Shown here piece after piece: positions 24,824 through 47,707 of a DNA stretch of 64,000 nucleotides; the first letter of the stretch is position 1, and each line of letters opens with the position of its first letter. The notes under the pieces were generated by a model that had not been told where the DNA came from, made no database searches, and saw only the letters and a list, made by a program, of their open reading frames with translations. The DNA is from Lachnospiraceae bacterium (GTDB taxonomy: Bacteria > Bacillota > Clostridia > Lachnospirales > Bianqueaceae). The stretch is from contig JAAWDX010000014.1 of assembly GCA_022794035.1 (NCBI GenBank), positions 62,001 to 126,000 on the forward strand. The letters run 5' to 3'. Position numbers and translations under genes: made by a program.

Positions 24824-25000
24824 AGAAGATCTGCCTGGAGTGTTCGATACCCTGTTATTTTGAACCTACACCTTTGAAACGGGAGTTCTATCATGTCATT
24901 ATGGGATGTCAGGCCTCATTTTTCCTCCTATATGTTTATAGGACGACAGAGGAAGGCTGAACATAAACTGCGAACACCCACCTAGCATTTTGCTAGGGAT
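24824..25000 (+). ncRNA. ssrS: 6S RNA
   Basis: RNA-polymerase-binding regulatory RNA of about 180 nt. GTGTTCG (24840-24846) pairs with CGAACAC (24971-24977) to close a long irregular hairpin. The conserved-looking 5' stretch TTCGATACCCTGTTATTTTG, the GGGATGTCAGGCCTC/GAGGAAGGCT arms and an apical hairpin (TCCTATA/TATAGGA) match my memory of Bacillota 6S RNAs. A small hairpin CCTAGCA/TGCTAGG closes the 3' end. The exact ends are inferred from the promoter and the last hairpin. Confidence 0.72.
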
Positions 25001-25042
25001 CAAAAGATCAGGACCGGCATTCTGGGGGATTTTTCCGCATGG

Positions 25043-25115
25043 GGGCCCGTGGCTCAGTTGGGAGAGCGTTCGGTTCGCATCCGAGAGGTCGAGGGTTCGA
25101 ATCCCTTCGGGTCCA
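25043..25115 (+). tRNA. tRNA-Ala (anticodon CGC)
   Basis: A 73-nt cloverleaf: acceptor GGGCCCG/CGGGTCC with discriminator A, D-arm GGCTCAGTTGGGAGAGC, anticodon stem TTCGG/CCGAG around loop TTCGCAT (anticodon CGC, reads GCG), and T-arm GAGGGTTCGAATCCCTT. CCA is not encoded. It lies about 40 bp after 6S RNA and may be on the same transcript. Confidence 0.95.
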
Positions 25116-39039: not shown

Positions 39040-40437
39040 ATGAGAAAGTTAATCGGTGATAAAGCATTTTATAAGATGGTACTGCTGGTAGCCATCCCTA
39101 TTATGGTGCAAAATGGAATTACCAATTTTGTCAGTCTGCTGGATAATATCATGGTAGGGCGCGTGGGCACGGCACAGATGTCAGGTGTGGCCATTGCCAA
39201 TCAGCTGCTGTTTGTTTTTAATCTGGCAATTTTTGGCGCCATTTCAGGAGCCGGCATCTTTGCGGCGCAGTTTTTTGGCTCGGGCGATCATGAAGGCGTT
39301 CGTTTTACAATGCGCTATAAGCTGATTATCTGCGTTATTTTGCTGGCTATATGCTATGTGCTGATCTGGTTTAAGGGAGAGGAGCTGATTGCGCTCTTTT
39401 TAAATGATGCGGATGCTGGCGATGACATTGCGCTTACGCTGCGAGAGGGGAAAAAATATATGCATACCATGCTGGTTGGCCTGGTTCCCTTTATCTTCTC
39501 CCAGTGCTATGCTTCAACGCTAAGAGAGACAGGGGAGACCGTACTGCCGATGAAGGCTGGCATCACAGCGGTGTTTGTGAATTTGGCACTGAATTATGTG
39601 CTGATTTTTGGCCATTTCGGCATGCCGGCCATGGGCGTGCAGGGAGCGGCTGTGGCTACCGTCATTTCCCGGTTTGTGGAGACGGCAATGATCATGCTGG
39701 TTGTGCACAGAAATCAGGATCAATATCGGTTTGCCGAGGGGCTGTACCGCTCGCTTCGTATTCCTAAAACACTGGTAAAGGCGATCACCATCAAAGGAAC
39801 GCCGCTGATGCTCAATGAGCTGCTTTGGTCAATGGGAATGTCGGTCATCATGCAGAGCTACTCGCTGCGCGGGCTGAGCGCCATTGCTTCGCTTAATATC
39901 AATAGTACCGTATTTAATCTATTCAGCACGGTATATTTTGCAATGGGTTCGGCTATCTCTATTATTATAGGGCAGCAGCTGGGAGCCGGCGAGACGGAAA
40001 AGGCCAGAGATACGGATGCCAAGCTTATTTTCTTTGCGGTGGCGCTGAGTGCAGCGGTGGGAGTGATTGCCATTGCGGCTGCGCCTCTGATTCCCCAGAT
40101 CTATAACACCACAGAAGAAGTGAGAGATCTGGCCACACAGCTGATTCAGGTATCGGCGCTTTGTATGCCGCTGGGCTGCTTTGTGCAGACGAGCTATTTC
40201 ACGCTCCGCTCAGGCGGAAAAACAGTTGTCACCTTCTTGTTTGACTGTGTCTATGTGTGGGTGATTACCATTCCGACCGCCTTCATTTTGGCAAGATTCA
40301 CAGCGCTGCCCATTGTGCCGCTTTATCTGGTGGTGCAGCTCATGGACATCATCAAGGCCGTAGTTGGGTTTATACTGGTGAAAAAGGGCGTCTGGGTGCA
40401 CAATATTGTAGCAGCGGCGAAGGAGGAGGCTGTATAA
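39040..40437 (+). CDS. MATE-family efflux transporter
   Basis: Membrane cation/drug antiporter of 465 residues with about 12 helices in two homologous six-helix halves. Family landmarks are PIMVQNGITNFVSLLDNIMVG (about 15-35) and the second-half MLNELLWSMG and NSTVFNLFSTVYF. Substrates of such clostridial MATEs are unknown. Its TAA stop shares an A with the ATG of the YggS gene, so the two are translationally coupled. Confidence 0.92.
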   Translation: MRKLIGDKAFYKMVLLVAIPIMVQNGITNFVSLLDNIMVGRVGTAQMSGVAIANQLLFVFNLAIFGAISGAGIFAAQFFGSGDHEGVRFTMRYKLIICVILLAICYVLIWFKGEELIALFLNDADAGDDIALTLREGKKYMHTMLVGLVPFIFSQCYASTLRETGETVLPMKAGITAVFVNLALNYVLIFGHFGMPAMGVQGAAVATVISRFVETAMIMLVVHRNQDQYRFAEGLYRSLRIPKTLVKAITIKGTPLMLNELLWSMGMSVIMQSYSLRGLSAIASLNINSTVFNLFSTVYFAMGSAISIIIGQQLGAGETEKARDTDAKLIFFAVALSAAVGVIAIAAAPLIPQIYNTTEEVRDLATQLIQVSALCMPLGCFVQTSYFTLRSGGKTVVTFLFDCVYVWVITIPTAFILARFTALPIVPLYLVVQLMDIIKAVVGFILVKKGVWVHNIVAAAKEEAV

Positions 40438-41132
40438 TGCTTTGGCAAAGATATCAGGAAATTGAGCAGAGCGTGCAGCGCGCTGCGCAAAAAACAGGCA
40501 GAGCCAATGAGAAGATCAAGCTGATTGCGGTCAGCAAAACGAAACCGCTTTCTATGGTCCGGGAGCTGGCAGAGCATGGTGTGCCTATTTTTGGAGAGAA
40601 TAAGGTGCAGGAGCTGTGTGAAAAGGCAGCTGCCTGCCCTGATCTGGAGTGGCATTTTATCGGGCATTTGCAGCGCAATAAGGTGAGGCAGCTCTTAAAG
40701 CAGAGACCAGCGCTGATTCATTCCTTAGATTCACAGCGGCTGGCTGCCGAGATTGAAAAAGAAGCGGAGAAGCAGGGGGTGGAGGTTCCGGTTCTGGTTG
40801 AAATCAATATCGGAAAGGAAGCCTCTAAGAGCGGTTTTTTCCCGGAAGAGGCGGCTGCGCAGATTAAGCAGATAGCGCAGCTGTGTCCGCATGTTAAAAT
40901 CCAGGGGCTGATGTGCGTAGCGCCGGCGGTGGACAAGCCAGAGGAGGCGCGTCCTTATTTTCAGAGGATGGCTCAGCTGCGCCAAGAAATCATGGAGCGG
41001 CAGATTCCCGGGGTCAAGATGGACGAGCTTTCAATGGGCATGACAGGTGATTTTGAAGTGGCGATTGAAGAAGGGGCGACAATGGTTCGCGTGGGCACGG
41101 CAATTTTCGGAGAACGGGAGTATGACGTATAG
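40437..41132 (+). CDS. YggS/PROSC-family PLP homeostasis protein
   Basis: Non-enzymatic PLP-binding protein (231 residues) that buffers free pyridoxal phosphate. It is a single alanine-racemase-like barrel with the PLP lysine in LIAVSKTKP (near 36), followed by FGENKVQEL, WHFIGHLQRNK, and the phosphate-binding SMGMTGDFEVAI. The ATG at 40437 overlaps the MATE stop (TAATG); GGAGGAGG lies 8-15 bases upstream. A longer frame from 40257 has no support. Confidence 0.93.
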   Translation: MLWQRYQEIEQSVQRAAQKTGRANEKIKLIAVSKTKPLSMVRELAEHGVPIFGENKVQELCEKAAACPDLEWHFIGHLQRNKVRQLLKQRPALIHSLDSQRLAAEIEKEAEKQGVEVPVLVEINIGKEASKSGFFPEEAAAQIKQIAQLCPHVKIQGLMCVAPAVDKPEEARPYFQRMAQLRQEIMERQIPGVKMDELSMGMTGDFEVAIEEGATMVRVGTAIFGEREYDV

Positions 41133-41151
41133 GCGCGGCAGGGAGGATGAA

Positions 41152-41472
41152 ATGGCTGAGAAAGAAAATAATGCGGTGCAGAAAGCGATGCAGCAGGAGG
41201 AGCTCCTGTATGACCTGGCAGATCTCTTTAAGGTGCTGGGGGATTCTACACGCATTCGCATTTTATGTGTATTATATAATGGAGAAATGTGTGTGAATGA
41301 TATTGCGGAGGTGCTGGGGATGACGACCAGTGCCATTTCACATCAGCTTAGAACATTAAAGCAGAGCCGTTTGGTTAAGTTCAGACGAGAAGGGAAAACG
41401 ATTTTTTATGATCTGGATGATGATCATGTTTTCTCCATTTTGCGGCAGGGAATGGAGCATATTCAGGAATAA
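41152..41472 (+). CDS. ArsR/SmtB-family metal-sensing repressor
   Basis: Winged-helix dimeric repressor of 106 residues. The HTH recognition helix is TTSAISHQLRTLKQSRLV (about 60-77), the wing is FRREGKTIFYDL, and the last helix has DDDHVFSIL and MEH. These are the positions of the alpha-5 zinc site of CzrA-type sensors (Asp, His...His), though the final His is not obvious. GGGAGG precedes the ATG at 41152. It is 19 bp after the YggS gene. A matching 12-2-12-type operator stands in front of the metal P-type ATPase at 45351, about 4 kb away; that link is inferred. Confidence 0.88.
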   Translation: MAEKENNAVQKAMQQEELLYDLADLFKVLGDSTRIRILCVLYNGEMCVNDIAEVLGMTTSAISHQLRTLKQSRLVKFRREGKTIFYDLDDDHVFSILRQGMEHIQE

Positions 41473-41616: not shown

Positions 41617-42987
41617 ATGAAAAAAAATCTGCGGTTTCGCATCGCTATGCTGGCAGGAAAAGCGGCGATGGCGGCTCAAAAGCTGCTCGGCATGAATGCC
41701 ACGTATTTTCCCGGGAAGCTGGCAATTCGGCTTTGCCCGGATTTTCTCGGGCGTATTGATAAGCCGGAGACAGTGCTGGGAGTCACGGGGACCAATGGAA
41801 AGACGACCTGCTGCAATTTGCTGTTAAATATTTTAACGGATCAGGGATATGATGTGATCAGCAATAAGCTGGGGTCTAATATCAATGCAGGCATTGCCAG
41901 TACGTTGATCGGCGGCAGCAGCATGAGCGGAAGGGCCAAGCATAAGATGGCGCTTTTAGAAATTGATGAGCGCAGCTCTCAGAAAGTCTATCCATATATC
42001 AAACCGGACTATGTGCTCTGCACCAATCTTTTTCGTGATACGGTGACCAGGGAAGCACATCCGGAGTTTGTCTTTCATTTAATTTCAGATTCTCTGCCAG
42101 AGAAAAGCAAACTGATTTTAAATGGGGATGATCTGCTCAGCAGCCGTTTGGCGCCGAATAATCCAAGAATATATTATTCGATTGGGCGTATGCCGTCAGA
42201 CAGCCCCGTCTGTGAGAATATCGTGAACGATATGAGGATTTGTCCACAGTGCCACGAATTGCTGCAGTATGAATATGTACGCCATCATCATATTGGCCGC
42301 GCTGCGTGCCCTAATTGCGGCTTTAGCTCTCCAAAGGCTAAGTATGAAGCGAAGCTGGAAGCAGAGGCGCTGGTGCTGGAGGGGACAAGCTACCGTCTGA
42401 TGGGGGACAGTCTTTTTAATGCTTATAATTTATTAGGCGTGATTGCTCTTTTAAGAGAGCTTGGCATGGAACGCGAAAAGATAGAAGCTTCGCTGCAGAA
42501 GCTGAAGATTGTGGAGTCGCGGTATTCCAGTGAGAAGATCGGCGAAATAACCGTTGTGACGCATATGGCGAAGGGGAAAAATGCGGTTGCCTGTTCCTGT
42601 GTATTTGACTATGTCCGCAAGGAGCCGGGGACAAAAGAGGTTATTTTGGCGCTCGATGATTATTTTGACCGTAAAGGTTCTTCTGAAAATATATGTTGGT
42701 ATTATGATACGGATTTTGAGTTTTTGAATGACGCTTCGATTAAAAGGATTATTGTGGGCGGCGTGCGTGCGCAGGATATCAAGCTGCGGCTTTTGATTGC
42801 CGGCGTGCCGGAGGAGAAAATTGTCTGCAGTCATTCGGAGATGGATACGCCCGGGCTTTTGCAGCTGGATGCGGATGCAGTCTATATTTTGCACGAGCTG
42901 TATTTGACGGCTGCCGCGATGACGATTCGGGAGCAGGTCAAAGCAAGGCTGCACGAAAAAGAAGGGAGTCAGAGCCATGCAAATTGA
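41617..42987 (+). CDS. MurT-like Mur ligase (lipid II amidation family)
   Basis: Mur-ligase-fold protein of 456 residues. MurT works with GatD to convert lipid II D-glutamate to D-isoglutamine. The ATP loop GVTGTNGKTT is at about 54-63. A MurT-type zinc ribbon CPQC...CPNC is inserted at about 209-235, and the C-terminal DUF1727 domain runs from about 310. The 3' end overlaps the GatD-like gene by 11 bp. Because that partner has lost its glutaminase residues, classical glutamine-dependent amidation is doubtful; it could use free ammonia or another amine, or another acceptor. Confidence 0.85.
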   Translation: MKKNLRFRIAMLAGKAAMAAQKLLGMNATYFPGKLAIRLCPDFLGRIDKPETVLGVTGTNGKTTCCNLLLNILTDQGYDVISNKLGSNINAGIASTLIGGSSMSGRAKHKMALLEIDERSSQKVYPYIKPDYVLCTNLFRDTVTREAHPEFVFHLISDSLPEKSKLILNGDDLLSSRLAPNNPRIYYSIGRMPSDSPVCENIVNDMRICPQCHELLQYEYVRHHHIGRAACPNCGFSSPKAKYEAKLEAEALVLEGTSYRLMGDSLFNAYNLLGVIALLRELGMEREKIEASLQKLKIVESRYSSEKIGEITVVTHMAKGKNAVACSCVFDYVRKEPGTKEVILALDDYFDRKGSSENICWYYDTDFEFLNDASIKRIIVGGVRAQDIKLRLLIAGVPEEKIVCSHSEMDTPGLLQLDADAVYILHELYLTAAAMTIREQVKARLHEKEGSQSHAN

Positions 42988-43684
42988 AATTTTATACCCT
43001 TCTTTTGCCAATCTGTACGGAGAAGCAACGGCGGTGCGCTATTTAACGCAGTGCCTTCCAGAAGCGGAAATCATTCGTACAGAGCTGGGGCAAATACCGG
43101 CTTTTGTCAAGGAAAAAGTGGATATGGTGTATATGGGTGGCATGACGGAGGATCAGCAGGAGCTGGTGATTCGGGAGCTACAGCCCTATAAAGCTCGCAT
43201 AGAAGAGCTGATTGAGCAGAATACGGTATTTCTGATGGTGAGCAATGCGCTGGAAATCTTTGGCCGTTATATTCAAAAAGAGGATGGTACAGAGATAGAA
43301 GCACTGGGATTGTTTGAAACGTATGCGAAAAGAAATATGACCATGCGTTATAACTCGCTGGTGCTGGGCCAGATGGAAGGCTTTAAGCTGCTTGGCTATA
43401 AATCGCAGTTTTCTCATTCCTACGGCGATAATACAAATGAGTTTTTGTTTGAAACAGAGCGCGGAGCGGGAATCAATCCGGAATCCAAGCTGGAGGGACT
43501 GCGGCGCCGTAATTTTATGGCTACCTATCTGCTGGGGCCGCTGCTGGTGTTAAATCCAGCGTTCATGAGGTATCTATTGGGGCTTTTAGGCATAAAGGAG
43601 TGCCGCCTGCCTTATGAGGATACTATGCAAGAAGCGTTCAATAGGCGGCTGGCCGAATTTGAAGACCAGAACACCCGCTATTGA
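42977..43684 (+). CDS. GatD-like protein lacking glutaminase residues
   Basis: The 235-residue partner of the MurT-like ligase has the overall GatD pattern (YPSFANLYGEA start, IFGRYIQKEDG, LGLF, GINPESKLEGL). At the nucleophile elbow, where GatD has ICGGYQLLG, it reads VSNALEIFG, so Cys is Ser and Gln is Glu. Where GatD has YLHGPLL it reads YLLGPLL, so the catalytic His is Leu. It is therefore unlikely to hydrolyse glutamine. The gene overlaps murT by 11 bp and lies 22 bp before an EctB-like transaminase. It may be a structural subunit only. Confidence 0.8.
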   Translation: MQIEILYPSFANLYGEATAVRYLTQCLPEAEIIRTELGQIPAFVKEKVDMVYMGGMTEDQQELVIRELQPYKARIEELIEQNTVFLMVSNALEIFGRYIQKEDGTEIEALGLFETYAKRNMTMRYNSLVLGQMEGFKLLGYKSQFSHSYGDNTNEFLFETERGAGINPESKLEGLRRRNFMATYLLGPLLVLNPAFMRYLLGLLGIKECRLPYEDTMQEAFNRRLAEFEDQNTRY

Positions 43685-43706: not shown

Positions 43707-44954
43707 ATGAAACAAAAAGAAATCTTCGAGACTTATGAATCCGAAGTACGTTCTTATTGTCGTAATTTCCCTGCCGTTTTTGCTACGGCCAAGGGTTCCG
43801 TTATTACAGATTGCGACGGGAATAGCTATATCGACTTTTTCAATGGCGCGGGTGCTCTGAATTATGGTCATAATAACGACTATATTAAAGGCAAGGTAGT
43901 GGATTATCTGATGAGCGACGGGATCATGCATGCGCTTGACATGATGACCTCGGCAAAGGGTGAGCTGATTCAGTTCATGGAAGAAAAGATCTTGCAGCCG
44001 CGTGGCTTGGACTATAAGATTATGTTTCCTGGTCCGACTGGTACTAATGCGATTGAAATGGCGCTGAAGCTGGCGCGCAAATATACTGGACGCCGTACCA
44101 TTTGGGCGCTCATGGGAGCGTTTCATGGGATGACGCTGGGAGCTTTGGCGTTAACCAGCGATCAAAACAGCCGCAAGGGCGGCGGGATTCCGCTGGAGAA
44201 TACCGTGCATATGCCGGCTCCGTATATGTTTCCTGAGCTTGATACGGTTCAGTATATGGAGGCTGTTTTGCAGGATGATCATTCCGGAATCGAAAAACCG
44301 GCAGCGATCATTGTGGAGACCACACAGGCTGAGGGCGGCATTCAGGTACTTCCTACGGACTATTTACAAAAACTGCGTGCATTTTGTGATAAGCATGAAA
44401 TTTTGCTGATTGTGGATGATATTCAGGTGGGCTGTGCGCGGACTGGTACCTTCTTCTCCTTCCAGCGTGCCGGCATCGTTCCTGATATTGTCTGTCTTTC
44501 AAAATCCATCGGTGGTTATGGCTTCCCCTTTGCGCTGACGCTAATCAAACCGGAGATCGACTGCTTCAACCCCGGTGAACATAACGGAACTTTTCGCGGC
44601 AATCAGCTTGCTATGGTGGCTTCTAAAGCCGGCATGGAATTTATGCTGGAGGCAAAGGTAGAAGAAGGCGTTCAGGAGAGAGAAGAAATTATTCGTTCTT
44701 TCTTAGAGGAAAAGATTGCTGGGCCCGGCCGTGAGATCCGCGGTATCGGATGCATCTGGGGAATTGACGTAGGCACAGGAGAACGCTCTAAAGCCGTGAT
44801 CCGCGAATGCTTCAAAAACGGCCTTATTTTGGAAAGAGCAGGACGTGATGACAGCGTAGTTAAGGTAATGCCCTCGCTTGTTATTGAAAAGGAACTGCTG
44901 GTAAAGGGTCTTGAAATTCTGAAGCAGAGCATGGATACCGTATTAAATGATTAA
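43707..44954 (+). CDS. ectB: EctB-like diaminobutyrate--2-oxoglutarate aminotransferase
   Basis: Class III PLP transaminase of 415 residues, expected to interconvert L-aspartate semialdehyde and L-2,4-diaminobutyrate. It carries EctB hallmarks: FETYESEVRSYCRNFP, GALNYGHNN, FPGPTGTNAIEMALKLAR and DDIQVGCARTG, and the PLP lysine in CLSKSIGGYG (about 268). No ectA or ectC is present, so ectoine is not the product here. AAGGAGG lies 10 bp before the ATG. The 22-bp gap to the GatD-like gene and the terminator downstream make it the third gene of that operon. Confidence 0.85.
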   Translation: MKQKEIFETYESEVRSYCRNFPAVFATAKGSVITDCDGNSYIDFFNGAGALNYGHNNDYIKGKVVDYLMSDGIMHALDMMTSAKGELIQFMEEKILQPRGLDYKIMFPGPTGTNAIEMALKLARKYTGRRTIWALMGAFHGMTLGALALTSDQNSRKGGGIPLENTVHMPAPYMFPELDTVQYMEAVLQDDHSGIEKPAAIIVETTQAEGGIQVLPTDYLQKLRAFCDKHEILLIVDDIQVGCARTGTFFSFQRAGIVPDIVCLSKSIGGYGFPFALTLIKPEIDCFNPGEHNGTFRGNQLAMVASKAGMEFMLEAKVEEGVQEREEIIRSFLEEKIAGPGREIRGIGCIWGIDVGTGERSKAVIRECFKNGLILERAGRDDSVVKVMPSLVIEKELLVKGLEILKQSMDTVLND

Positions 44955-45412: not shown

Positions 45413-47707
45413 ATGATTACGAAAAAGTATCGTATGGAAAATTTGGGCTGTGCCAATTGTGCGGCAAAGATGGAAAATAAAATCAATGCGCTTCCGCAGG
45501 TGCAGGAGGCGACTCTTGCCTTTGCAACGAAACAGCTGCGCGTGACAGCCGAGGATCCGGATTCTTTATTAGAAGAGATGCAGGCCATTGCAGCATCAAT
45601 AGAATCAGCGGTTGTCATTCGTCCGTGGAGCAGGGGAAAGGGTCATGATCATGAGCATGCAGAATGCGGCTGCGGCCACCACCATGATCATGAGCATGCA
45701 GAATGCGGCTGCGGCCATCACCACGATCATGAGCATGCGGAGTGCGGCTGCGGTCACCACCATGATCATGAACATGAGCACCACCACGAACACGACCATC
45801 ATCATGACCATAGCCATAGCCAAACGCATGACCATGGCCACGATCACGAGGAAATAGATGTCAAATGGGTGATTATCGGTGCTGTGCTTTTTGTGATAAG
45901 CCTGATTCTGGAGTGGTGTACAGGCATAGAGGCTGGCAGCAGCCTGGAGTGGGGTTCCATCTGCATAGCACTGCTGATGATAGCGGCCTATATCATCTTA
46001 GGCAAAGAAATTATCTGGGCGGCTGTCAAGGGCATTGGGCACGGACAGATTTTTGATGAAAACTTTTTAATGAGTATTGCCACACTGGGAGCAATCGGCA
46101 TCGGGGAGTATGCCGAGGCAGTGGGCGTTATGCTTTTCTTTAGAGTGGGAGAATACTTTGAACATAGAGCAGTAGAAAAGAGCCGCAGTGCAATTATGGA
46201 AGCAGTCGACATGCGGCCTGAAATGGTGCAGCGTGTAAAAGGCGAAGAAAGTGAGCTAATCCCAGCAGAAGAAGCACAGAAAGGGGATATTGTGATGGTT
46301 CGCCCCGGCGATAGGATTCCGCTGGACGGTACGATAGTCGAAGGAGAGACGCAGATCGATACGTCGCCCGTTACCGGAGAGCCAGTACCGATGAGCGCCA
46401 AAATCGGCGATGCAATCCTTTCCGGCTGCATCAACAACACAGGGCTGATTCAGATCCAGGTAGAAAAGGTCCTAGAAGAATCCATGGTAACTCGCATTTT
46501 AGAATCCGTAGAAAATGCGGCCGCCAGCAAACCGCAGATGGAACGGTTCATCACGCGTTTTGCCAAGATCTACACCCCCATCGTGGTGGCAATTGCCCTG
46601 CTAACAGCCATCATTCCGTCTCTTATAAGCGGCAACTGGGGCTACTGGGTCTATACAGCGCTCACCTTCCTAGTCATCAGCTGCCCCTGCGCAATGGTGC
46701 TTAGCGTACCGCTGGCCTTCTTCTCCGGCATCGGCAGCGGCTCACGCAAAGGGATCCTTTTCAAAGGAGGAACCGCGCTGGAGGCCCTGACAAAGATCAA
46801 AGCAGTTGTCATGGATAAAACAGGCACCATCACACAAGGAAATTTCGTAGTACAGAGCATTCATTCCTTTGGGGCATGGGATACCAAGCAGATACTGGAA
46901 GCCGCCGCCGTTTGTGAAGGTGCGTCCACGCATCCCATTGCCCGCAGCATCTTAAAAGAGGCAGAGCAGCAGCTGGAGATGCTTCCGGCCGCGCCGGAAA
47001 GTATTGAAGAGATCGCCGGAAAGGGAATCAAAGCCCAGTATGACGGCAAGGAACTGCTGTGCGGCAATGACAAACTGATGCAGGCCTATGGCATCGGGCT
47101 TCCCAGTGAGCAAGGTGCCTACGGCACCCATGTGTATGTAGCGGTAGACGGTGATCTGGCAGGAGAAATTTTGATTGCGGATACGATCAAAAAAGAGGCG
47201 GCATCAGCGATTCATAAGCTGCGTGAGAAGCATAAGCTGACGGCTATGCTGACGGGGGATGCGAAGCAGAGTGCGCAGGCTGTGGCGGATACCGTGGGTG
47301 TGCAGCAGGTGCGGGCTGAGCTTTTGCCGCAGGATAAGCTGACGGCGCTGCGCGAGATTCGCGAGCAGGAGGGCGGCGTGATGTTTGTAGGGGATGGCAT
47401 TAACGATGCGCCGGTGCTGGCAGGAGCCGATGTGGGCGCGGCGATGGGCAGCGGTTCTGATGCAGCGATTGAGGCGGCGGATGTTGTGTTTATGACATCG
47501 AGCGTGGAGGCCATTCCTCAGGCGATTGATATTGCAGAAAATGCGATGCGGGTGGCTAAGCAGAATGTGATCTTTGCGCTGCTGGTGAAGGTGGCCGTGA
47601 TGGCGCTGGGCCTCGCCGGGATTGCTAATATGTGGCTGGCAGTATTTGCTGATAGCGGCGTTGCACTGCTATGTGTGCTTAATTCGATTCGGATTTTGAG
47701 AAAATAA
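45413..47707 (+). CDS. Heavy-metal P1B-type ATPase (Zn/Cd/Pb-like) with His-rich repeats
   Basis: ATP-driven metal exporter of 764 residues. It has an N-terminal HMA domain with metal motif GCANC (about 11-15), then a very His/Cys-rich segment (about 77-145) containing three 13-residue repeats HDHEHAECGCGHH (39-bp DNA repeats from 45644). The membrane region has the CPC motif SCPCAMVLSVPL, followed by phosphorylation DKTGT, TGD and GDGINDAP. CPC, together with the HMA/His-rich N-terminus, suits Zn2+/Cd2+/Pb2+ export. The upstream operator suggests control by an ArsR-family sensor. Confidence 0.92.
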   Translation: MITKKYRMENLGCANCAAKMENKINALPQVQEATLAFATKQLRVTAEDPDSLLEEMQAIAASIESAVVIRPWSRGKGHDHEHAECGCGHHHDHEHAECGCGHHHDHEHAECGCGHHHDHEHEHHHEHDHHHDHSHSQTHDHGHDHEEIDVKWVIIGAVLFVISLILEWCTGIEAGSSLEWGSICIALLMIAAYIILGKEIIWAAVKGIGHGQIFDENFLMSIATLGAIGIGEYAEAVGVMLFFRVGEYFEHRAVEKSRSAIMEAVDMRPEMVQRVKGEESELIPAEEAQKGDIVMVRPGDRIPLDGTIVEGETQIDTSPVTGEPVPMSAKIGDAILSGCINNTGLIQIQVEKVLEESMVTRILESVENAAASKPQMERFITRFAKIYTPIVVAIALLTAIIPSLISGNWGYWVYTALTFLVISCPCAMVLSVPLAFFSGIGSGSRKGILFKGGTALEALTKIKAVVMDKTGTITQGNFVVQSIHSFGAWDTKQILEAAAVCEGASTHPIARSILKEAEQQLEMLPAAPESIEEIAGKGIKAQYDGKELLCGNDKLMQAYGIGLPSEQGAYGTHVYVAVDGDLAGEILIADTIKKEAASAIHKLREKHKLTAMLTGDAKQSAQAVADTVGVQQVRAELLPQDKLTALREIREQEGGVMFVGDGINDAPVLAGADVGAAMGSGSDAAIEAADVVFMTSSVEAIPQAIDIAENAMRVAKQNVIFALLVKVAVMALGLAGIANMWLAVFADSGVALLCVLNSIRILRK

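Follow-up and report, generated by a model that had tools for sequence, protein, structure and literature searches.

A clostridial MurT/GatD pair without glutaminase residues and its possible role as an amine ligase at D-Glu2

In the 64,000-nucleotide stretch of Lachnospiraceae DNA analysed here (the window), a MurT-like Mur ligase gene overlaps the gene of a GatD homologue which lacks the catalytic Cys and His of the glutaminase, as the first-pass annotation had proposed, and the third residue of the triad, Asp349 of MurT, is lost as well (Asn358), a point absent from that annotation. The residues of the predicted active site show the ligase part of such a dead pair to be intact. We tentatively favour the reading, held with somewhat less than even confidence, that MurT and the pseudo-GatD form a neofunctionalised isoglutaminyl synthase that would ligate an amine other than ammonia to the alpha-carboxylate of D-Glu2; both the ligation to D-Glu2 and the use of an amine not derived from glutamine are what we infer from these residues.

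In Gram-positive bacteria, cross-linking, resistance to beta-lactams and sensing by NOD receptors are all under the control of D-Glu2 amidation. The observations point to a clostridial group, gut and rumen species included, whose D-Glu2 enzyme would be unable to use glutamine, so that annotation as isoglutaminyl synthase would be wrong for these clostridia. As it lacks the features that define the glutaminase, a dead pair should not carry that name; it resembles a Mur ligase whose partner is a pseudo-glutaminase. The dead pairs are in effect natural combinations of the C94G/C94S and D349N changes in a well-studied enzyme, which makes the question of the amine directly testable. If an amino acid or a diamine is used, a type of ligase for substitution of the D-Glu alpha-carboxyl will have been identified, for which no gene is known to us.

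The locus and the fold of its proteins

The operon-like run comprises in order the genes for a MATE transporter (39040), a YggS-like protein (to 41132), an ArsR-type regulator (41047-41472), the MurT-like and GatD-like proteins and a diaminobutyrate aminotransferase, with the following features:

39040..41132, plus strand: MATE transporter and YggS-like genes, 5' of murT
41617..42987, plus strand: MurT-like Mur ligase of 456 aa with Mur_ligase_M and MurT_C domains (Pfam MurT_C 7e-25, Mur_ligase_M 1e-7; S. aureus MurT 7q8e 2e-51)
41785..41808, plus strand: ATP-binding P-loop TGTNGKTT of MurT, residues 57-64 (TGTxGK without variation across the aligned dead-pair MurTs)
42034..42060, plus strand: channel/active-site loop RDTVTREAH of MurT, residues 140-148, with the new His148 (alignment)
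42241..42318, plus strand: Cys4 zinc ribbon of MurT, C209, C212, C231 and C234 (4/4 Cys invariant)
42685..42690, plus strand: Glu357-Asn358 of MurT, with Asn358 in place of triad Asp349 and Glu357 new (alignment)
42977..43684, plus strand: pseudo-GatD of 235 aa with the fold of a glutaminase and none of its catalytic residues (Pfam, NCBIfam, PDB sequence match, AlphaFold)
43238..43264, plus strand: dead nucleophile elbow VSNALEIFG of GatD, Ser89 for Cys94 and Asn90 for Gly95 (alignment)
43346..43348, plus strand: Arg124 of GatD, equivalent of the glutamine-capture Arg128, retained (alignment)
43526..43546, plus strand: YLLGPLL of GatD, Leu186 for catalytic His189 (alignment)
43707..44954, plus strand: diaminobutyrate-2-oxoglutarate aminotransferase, EctB/Dat family (TIGR02407, 557 bits, cut-off 552)

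The gatD frame is open from 42977 to 43684 and shares 11 bp with the 3' end of the MurT-like frame, which, together with the MurT_C match of the latter, bears out the operon link to a MurT-like ligase noted earlier. The aminotransferase gene starts 22 bp 3' of gatD and has its own Shine-Dalgarno-like site. Elsewhere in the window, a heavy-metal P-type ATPase (45413-47707) carries a His-/Cys-rich repeated stretch (HDHEHAECGCGHHH) after its N-terminal metal domain, and a 6S RNA (24829-25032; Rfam, 63.8 bits) is followed by a tRNA at 25043-25115.

That the product of 42977-43684 is a GatD homologue is beyond doubt, with matches to Pfam GATase_3 (3e-12), NCBIfam GatD (7.5e-18) and S. aureus GatD in the PDB (~6e-17). 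Its AlphaFold model (pLDDT 94) has its best fold match in S. aureus GatD from the GatD/MurT complex (6h5e_A; Z 27.1, 2.4 A, 228 residues), in agreement with the earlier claim that the fold-specific segments are kept. The model places S89 at the strand-to-helix elbow (E84-88, H89-95) and has an extra C-terminal helix (214-229), the MurT-binding helix feature of the GatD type. The NCBIfam equivalog cut-offs are missed by both proteins (GatD 64.8 of 400 bits, MurT 195.7 of 800 bits). In the model of the window MurT, the channel loop and the Asp349 region are of low confidence; the corresponding loop is unresolved in the S. pneumoniae crystal (PMC6085368).

Residues lost, retained and newly fixed

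In the alignment with the S. aureus proteins, the GatD elbow MVSNALEIFG stands opposite TICGGYQFLG, with Ser89 for C94, and YLLGPLL opposite YLHGPIL, with Leu186 for H189, while in MurT SENICW stands opposite GRDTSW, with Asn358 at the triad position that is occupied by Asp in 49/49 canonical MurTs. Dead pairs also lack the oxyanion Gly and the ENH motif, and most dead GatDs have Gly in place of Cys94. None of the 15 sampled family members that carry the gene, and none of 65 pairs altogether, has either the Cys or the His, a loss of both residues that is far beyond chance. The sole Cys and His residues of the window GatD are C26, C209 or C210 (KECRL) and H147. A displaced Cys/His pair, for which the first-pass annotation had recommended an alignment, is rejected, since across 43 aligned type I relatives Cys fills at most 21 rows of any one column and His at most 30%, neither residue thus being conserved in the dead GatDs.

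In S. aureus, amidation from glutamine is lost in each of the mutants C94S, C94G and MurT-D349N, as is glutaminase activity in C94A, H189A and R128A (PMC6113224; PMC5871853). Replacement of the triad Asp in S. pneumoniae lowers activity without suppressing it (PMC6085368), so that the losses of Cys and His weigh most. Judged by the residues lost and the published mutants, the glutaminase should not be able to work, and glutamine hydrolysis by the window GatD is not credible.

The P-loop, the Mg-binding acidic residues, the acceptor Asn and the Cys4 set are invariant in the dead-pair MurT alignment, the roles of the acidic residues and the Asn having been described (PMC6085368). A changed acceptor is made less likely by this retention of the residues that bind ATP, Mg and the acceptor carboxylate. 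Of the functions suggested in the first-pass annotation, a different carboxylate is thereby disfavoured, while another amine is favoured and free ammonia stands as a strong rival. The glutamine-capture Arg of GatD, R128 (PMC5871853), is present in 56/59 type I and II dead GatDs.

Other positions have become fixed in a new form. The elbow of dead GatDs almost always reads TGN[AS], with Asn90 after the dead nucleophile in 58/59; N90 and E58 are new near-invariant residues, to which type I adds Ile99 and Asn126. The canonical MurT loop RDQxDRxGE, which in S. pneumoniae borders the ammonia path and is without the Mg-coordinating His of other Mur ligases (PMC6085368), reads R-D-S/Q-x-x-R-N-x-H in dead pairs, its last residue being E in 48/49 canonical pairs and H in 57/59 type I and II dead pairs. 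By alignment, this new His lies in the same loop as the His of other Mur ligases, at a different position; the window loop RDTVTREAH has Glu in place of the Asn of RNxH. Residue 357, beside the old Asp349, is Glu in 42/43 type I dead-pair MurTs, and the muropeptide-binding DNAAD region is rewritten in dead pairs.

Distribution, phylogeny and constraint

Altogether 116 MurT+GatD pairs were aligned (49 canonical, 65 dead, 2 mixed), of which 103 entered a tree with the trait columns masked. As had been proposed earlier, the dead GatDs were aligned to see whether they group, and a single branch (SH-aLRT 98) has all 57 dead pairs of the tree on the same side, which may not be a clade as the root was not inferred. 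The trait needs one change on this tree compared with ~34 for shuffled labels, and one change in each of the separate trees of MurT (SH-aLRT 14) and GatD (86); many independent losses are therefore rejected. Two isolated GatDs with canonical MurT partners have lost the Cys only (L201:1974-2699) or the His only (L197:1980-2717), and these mixed pairs are placed among the canonical pairs, apart from the main dead group. A third divergent dead type (L088, L092, L097, L102, L296, L297) has the elbow NGSSG or GTSI, the MurT loop KDQVQRNGEP and no Cys/His. A canonical MurT-GatD occurs as a natural single-chain fusion in one open frame of 697 codons (L206:3-2093, G472).

A draw of 391 genomes from the class gave 207 with a GatD-type match; part of these were read, and at least 32, from 15 family codes, proved dead, so that dead pairs are spread over 15 or more family-level groups. 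Comparison of close relatives gives dN/dS values of 0.05-0.10 (dead gatD) and 0.03-0.12 (the partner murT), and these low values together with the breadth of occurrence lead to rejection of decay to a pseudogene. Because dN/dS lies at 0.03-0.12, the dead pairs form one group of 57 and new residues are near-invariant, we propose that the dead pair has a constrained new function.

Dead pairs replace canonical pairs: a canonical MurT was found in none of 45 dead-pair genomes tested. The search of the source genome for a second, canonical MurT/GatD pair, advised in the first-pass annotation, came back empty, with MurT_C found once only, so that compensation by such a pair is rejected; another GATase_3 match in this genome is partial and lies elsewhere (C4). 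Two or three divergent dead pairs per genome are present in G016, G013, G015, G005, G301, G611 and G694, the second MurT_C copies of G611 and G694 being dead pairs too. In G301, a tandem second dead pair directly follows the first (L074:5709-7561), with a MurT of 383 aa without zinc ribbon and without the RDSxxRNxH loop. A literature search found no description of a GatD/MurT pseudoenzyme, an absence that is weakly tested.

Candidate amines, alternatives and known systems

In the reading that we favour, MurT would phosphorylate the D-Glu2 alpha-carboxylate of the peptidoglycan precursor with ATP, as its retained residues suggest, and the acyl phosphate would be attacked not by glutamine-derived ammonia but by an amino acid or a diamine that is itself ligated, in the manner of other Mur ligases, in this genus perhaps 2,4-diaminobutyrate provided by the adjacent aminotransferase. 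The pseudo-GatD would be an obligatory structural partner, the old glutamine pocket of which, with its capture Arg, may position the amine beside the site where MurT receives its incoming substrate; D-Glu2 of the resulting stem peptide would bear a substituent and not a plain amide. Four features speak for an amine that is not ammonia: the capture Arg is kept, the amine side is rewritten and conserved, paralogues exist and an aminotransferase is the neighbour; moreover, several amines would explain two or three divergent pairs per genome more easily than one ammonia reaction. The wider proposal that a large clostridial lineage has made an amino-acid or diamine ligase acting at D-Glu2 out of a glutamine amidotransferase, with the dead pocket holding the amine and diaminobutyrate used in some species, we consider possible but less likely than not. 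We know of no description in clostridia of D-Glu2 substitution by an amino acid or diamine, diaminobutyrate included.

The aminotransferase lies 3' of gatD in both species of the genus, and another genus of the family (G005) has MatE, Ala_racemase_N (yggS), a decayed MurT and DAT (L294) in the same MATE-yggS-murT-DAT order, which shows that the link is older. The MurT remnant in this genome (L294:4435-5424), located between yggS and the aminotransferase, has 330 aa and neither P-loop nor C-terminal domain. In families f99 and f77 the aminotransferase is found directly 3' of a second MurE (L288:5610-7127, L289:4500-5978, L307:4470-5957) with EDPG or EDPS for DNPR, possibly a diaminobutyrate-adding MurE subfamily. 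Its position beside a decayed MurT and a second MurE links diaminobutyrate to Mur ligases.

The aminotransferase is present in 14/46 dead-pair genomes versus 0/29 canonical or mixed ones (Fisher p 0.0005, kinship ignored); an exclusive link is weakened by the class-wide draw, where 6/10 carriers are without a verified dead pair, two of these having the gene beside very long ORFs. As it is absent from 32/46 dead-pair genomes, diaminobutyrate cannot be the general amine. Diaminobutyrate is found in Clavibacter walls at position 3 and in the D-Glu to D-Ala bridge (PMC9603630). In the source genome (G000), MurE has the DNPR motif of meso-DAP ligases, so that a diaminobutyrate-containing type B (2-4 cross-linked) wall is not expected and is unlikely in this species, and decarboxylation of diaminobutyrate to 1,3-diaminopropane is rejected, as no PF00282 enzyme is found in the genome. 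Other MurE loci of dead-pair genomes, the window's family included, show EDSG, EDPG, EDPN and EDPR (L271, L273, L270, L272, L258, L268), a variety of motifs which suggests that residue 3 of the stem peptide may vary.

A close rival is an ammonia-dependent lipid II amidase, which would form D-isoglutamine from free ammonia with a structural, CPS1-like pseudo-GatD and which we consider possible but less likely than not. Cys to Gly in most dead GatDs is exactly the change of C94G, and the mutual exclusion of dead and canonical pairs in genomes is as expected for one shared product. The matches listed include named relatives known as MAGs from gut or rumen, where ammonia is plentiful. At pH 8.5, NH3 or NH4Cl allows the S. 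aureus MurT/GatD-C94G complex to amidate lipid II, with glutamine useless, and GatD is needed in that reaction as either protein alone is inactive; the wild-type complex, however, does not use ammonia at pH 7.5 (PMC3266927). Human CPS1, with Ser for the catalytic Cys, likewise uses free ammonia and has kept the glutaminase-like domain (PMC4655335). On the other hand, S. aureus MurT replaces MurE in vitro and adds L-Lys to UDP-MurNAc-dipeptide, data not shown there (PMC3266927), so that free ammonia and an amino acid are both chemically open. What the ammonia reaction does not predict is the capture Arg, the new invariant residues at the elbow and beside Asp349, and two to three divergent pairs per genome.

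An acceptor carboxylate other than lipid II D-Glu2, for example on another polymer or a cofactor, is improbable. The rewritten DNAAD region, the lack of a conserved cell-wall gene neighbourhood across the window's family and the MurT of one lineage (L074) without loop and zinc ribbon would fit it, but such an acceptor is at odds with the invariance of the Asn that binds the acceptor and of the acidic pair that binds Mg, with the replacement of canonical pairs by dead ones and with the location of the aminotransferase next to Mur ligases. That the complex only regulates or serves as a scaffold, without ligation, is very improbable: all three glutaminase residues are gone and one genome has a truncated MurT without P-loop beside the aminotransferase (L294), yet the ATP and Mg residues are invariant in intact pairs and both genes are under strong purifying selection. 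In Selenomonas, a diamine is attached to the D-Glu alpha-carboxyl of a lipid intermediate by a transferase to which, to our knowledge, no gene has been assigned; that the window pair is the clostridial form of this Selenomonas/Veillonella lipid intermediate:diamine transferase (cadaverine or putrescine on D-Glu) is hardly conceivable in spite of the same bond on a lipid intermediate, and the Negativicutes transferase is rejected as a relative, as MurT_C occurs in 0/150 genomes from the class to which a Selenomonadaceae MAG belongs.

With respect to known systems, the window pair shares with MurT/GatD of S. aureus and S. pneumoniae the two folds, the overlapping gene order, the ATP, Mg, acceptor and zinc residues of MurT and the capture Arg and C-terminal helix of GatD. 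Unlike these, it lacks Cys94, His189, MurT Asp349, the oxyanion Gly and ENH, and its channel loop and Asp349 region are rewritten in a form that is conserved among dead pairs. As in human CPS1, a class I glutaminase domain naturally without the catalytic Cys (Ser) is kept in an apparently working synthetase; in contrast, CPS1 makes carbamoyl phosphate, is no Mur ligase, carries the dead domain fused and uses free ammonia, which for the window pair is a candidate only. With MurE and the other amino-acid-adding Mur ligases the pair would have in common Mur chemistry with attack of an amine on an acyl phosphate, a reaction type within reach of S. aureus MurT in vitro, given its addition of L-Lys. 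The MurT-like proteins of pseudomurein archaea are likewise MurT relatives that have to work without a glutaminase, but there GatD is altogether absent, whereas the window pair has kept a conserved dead GatD (PMC11915815).
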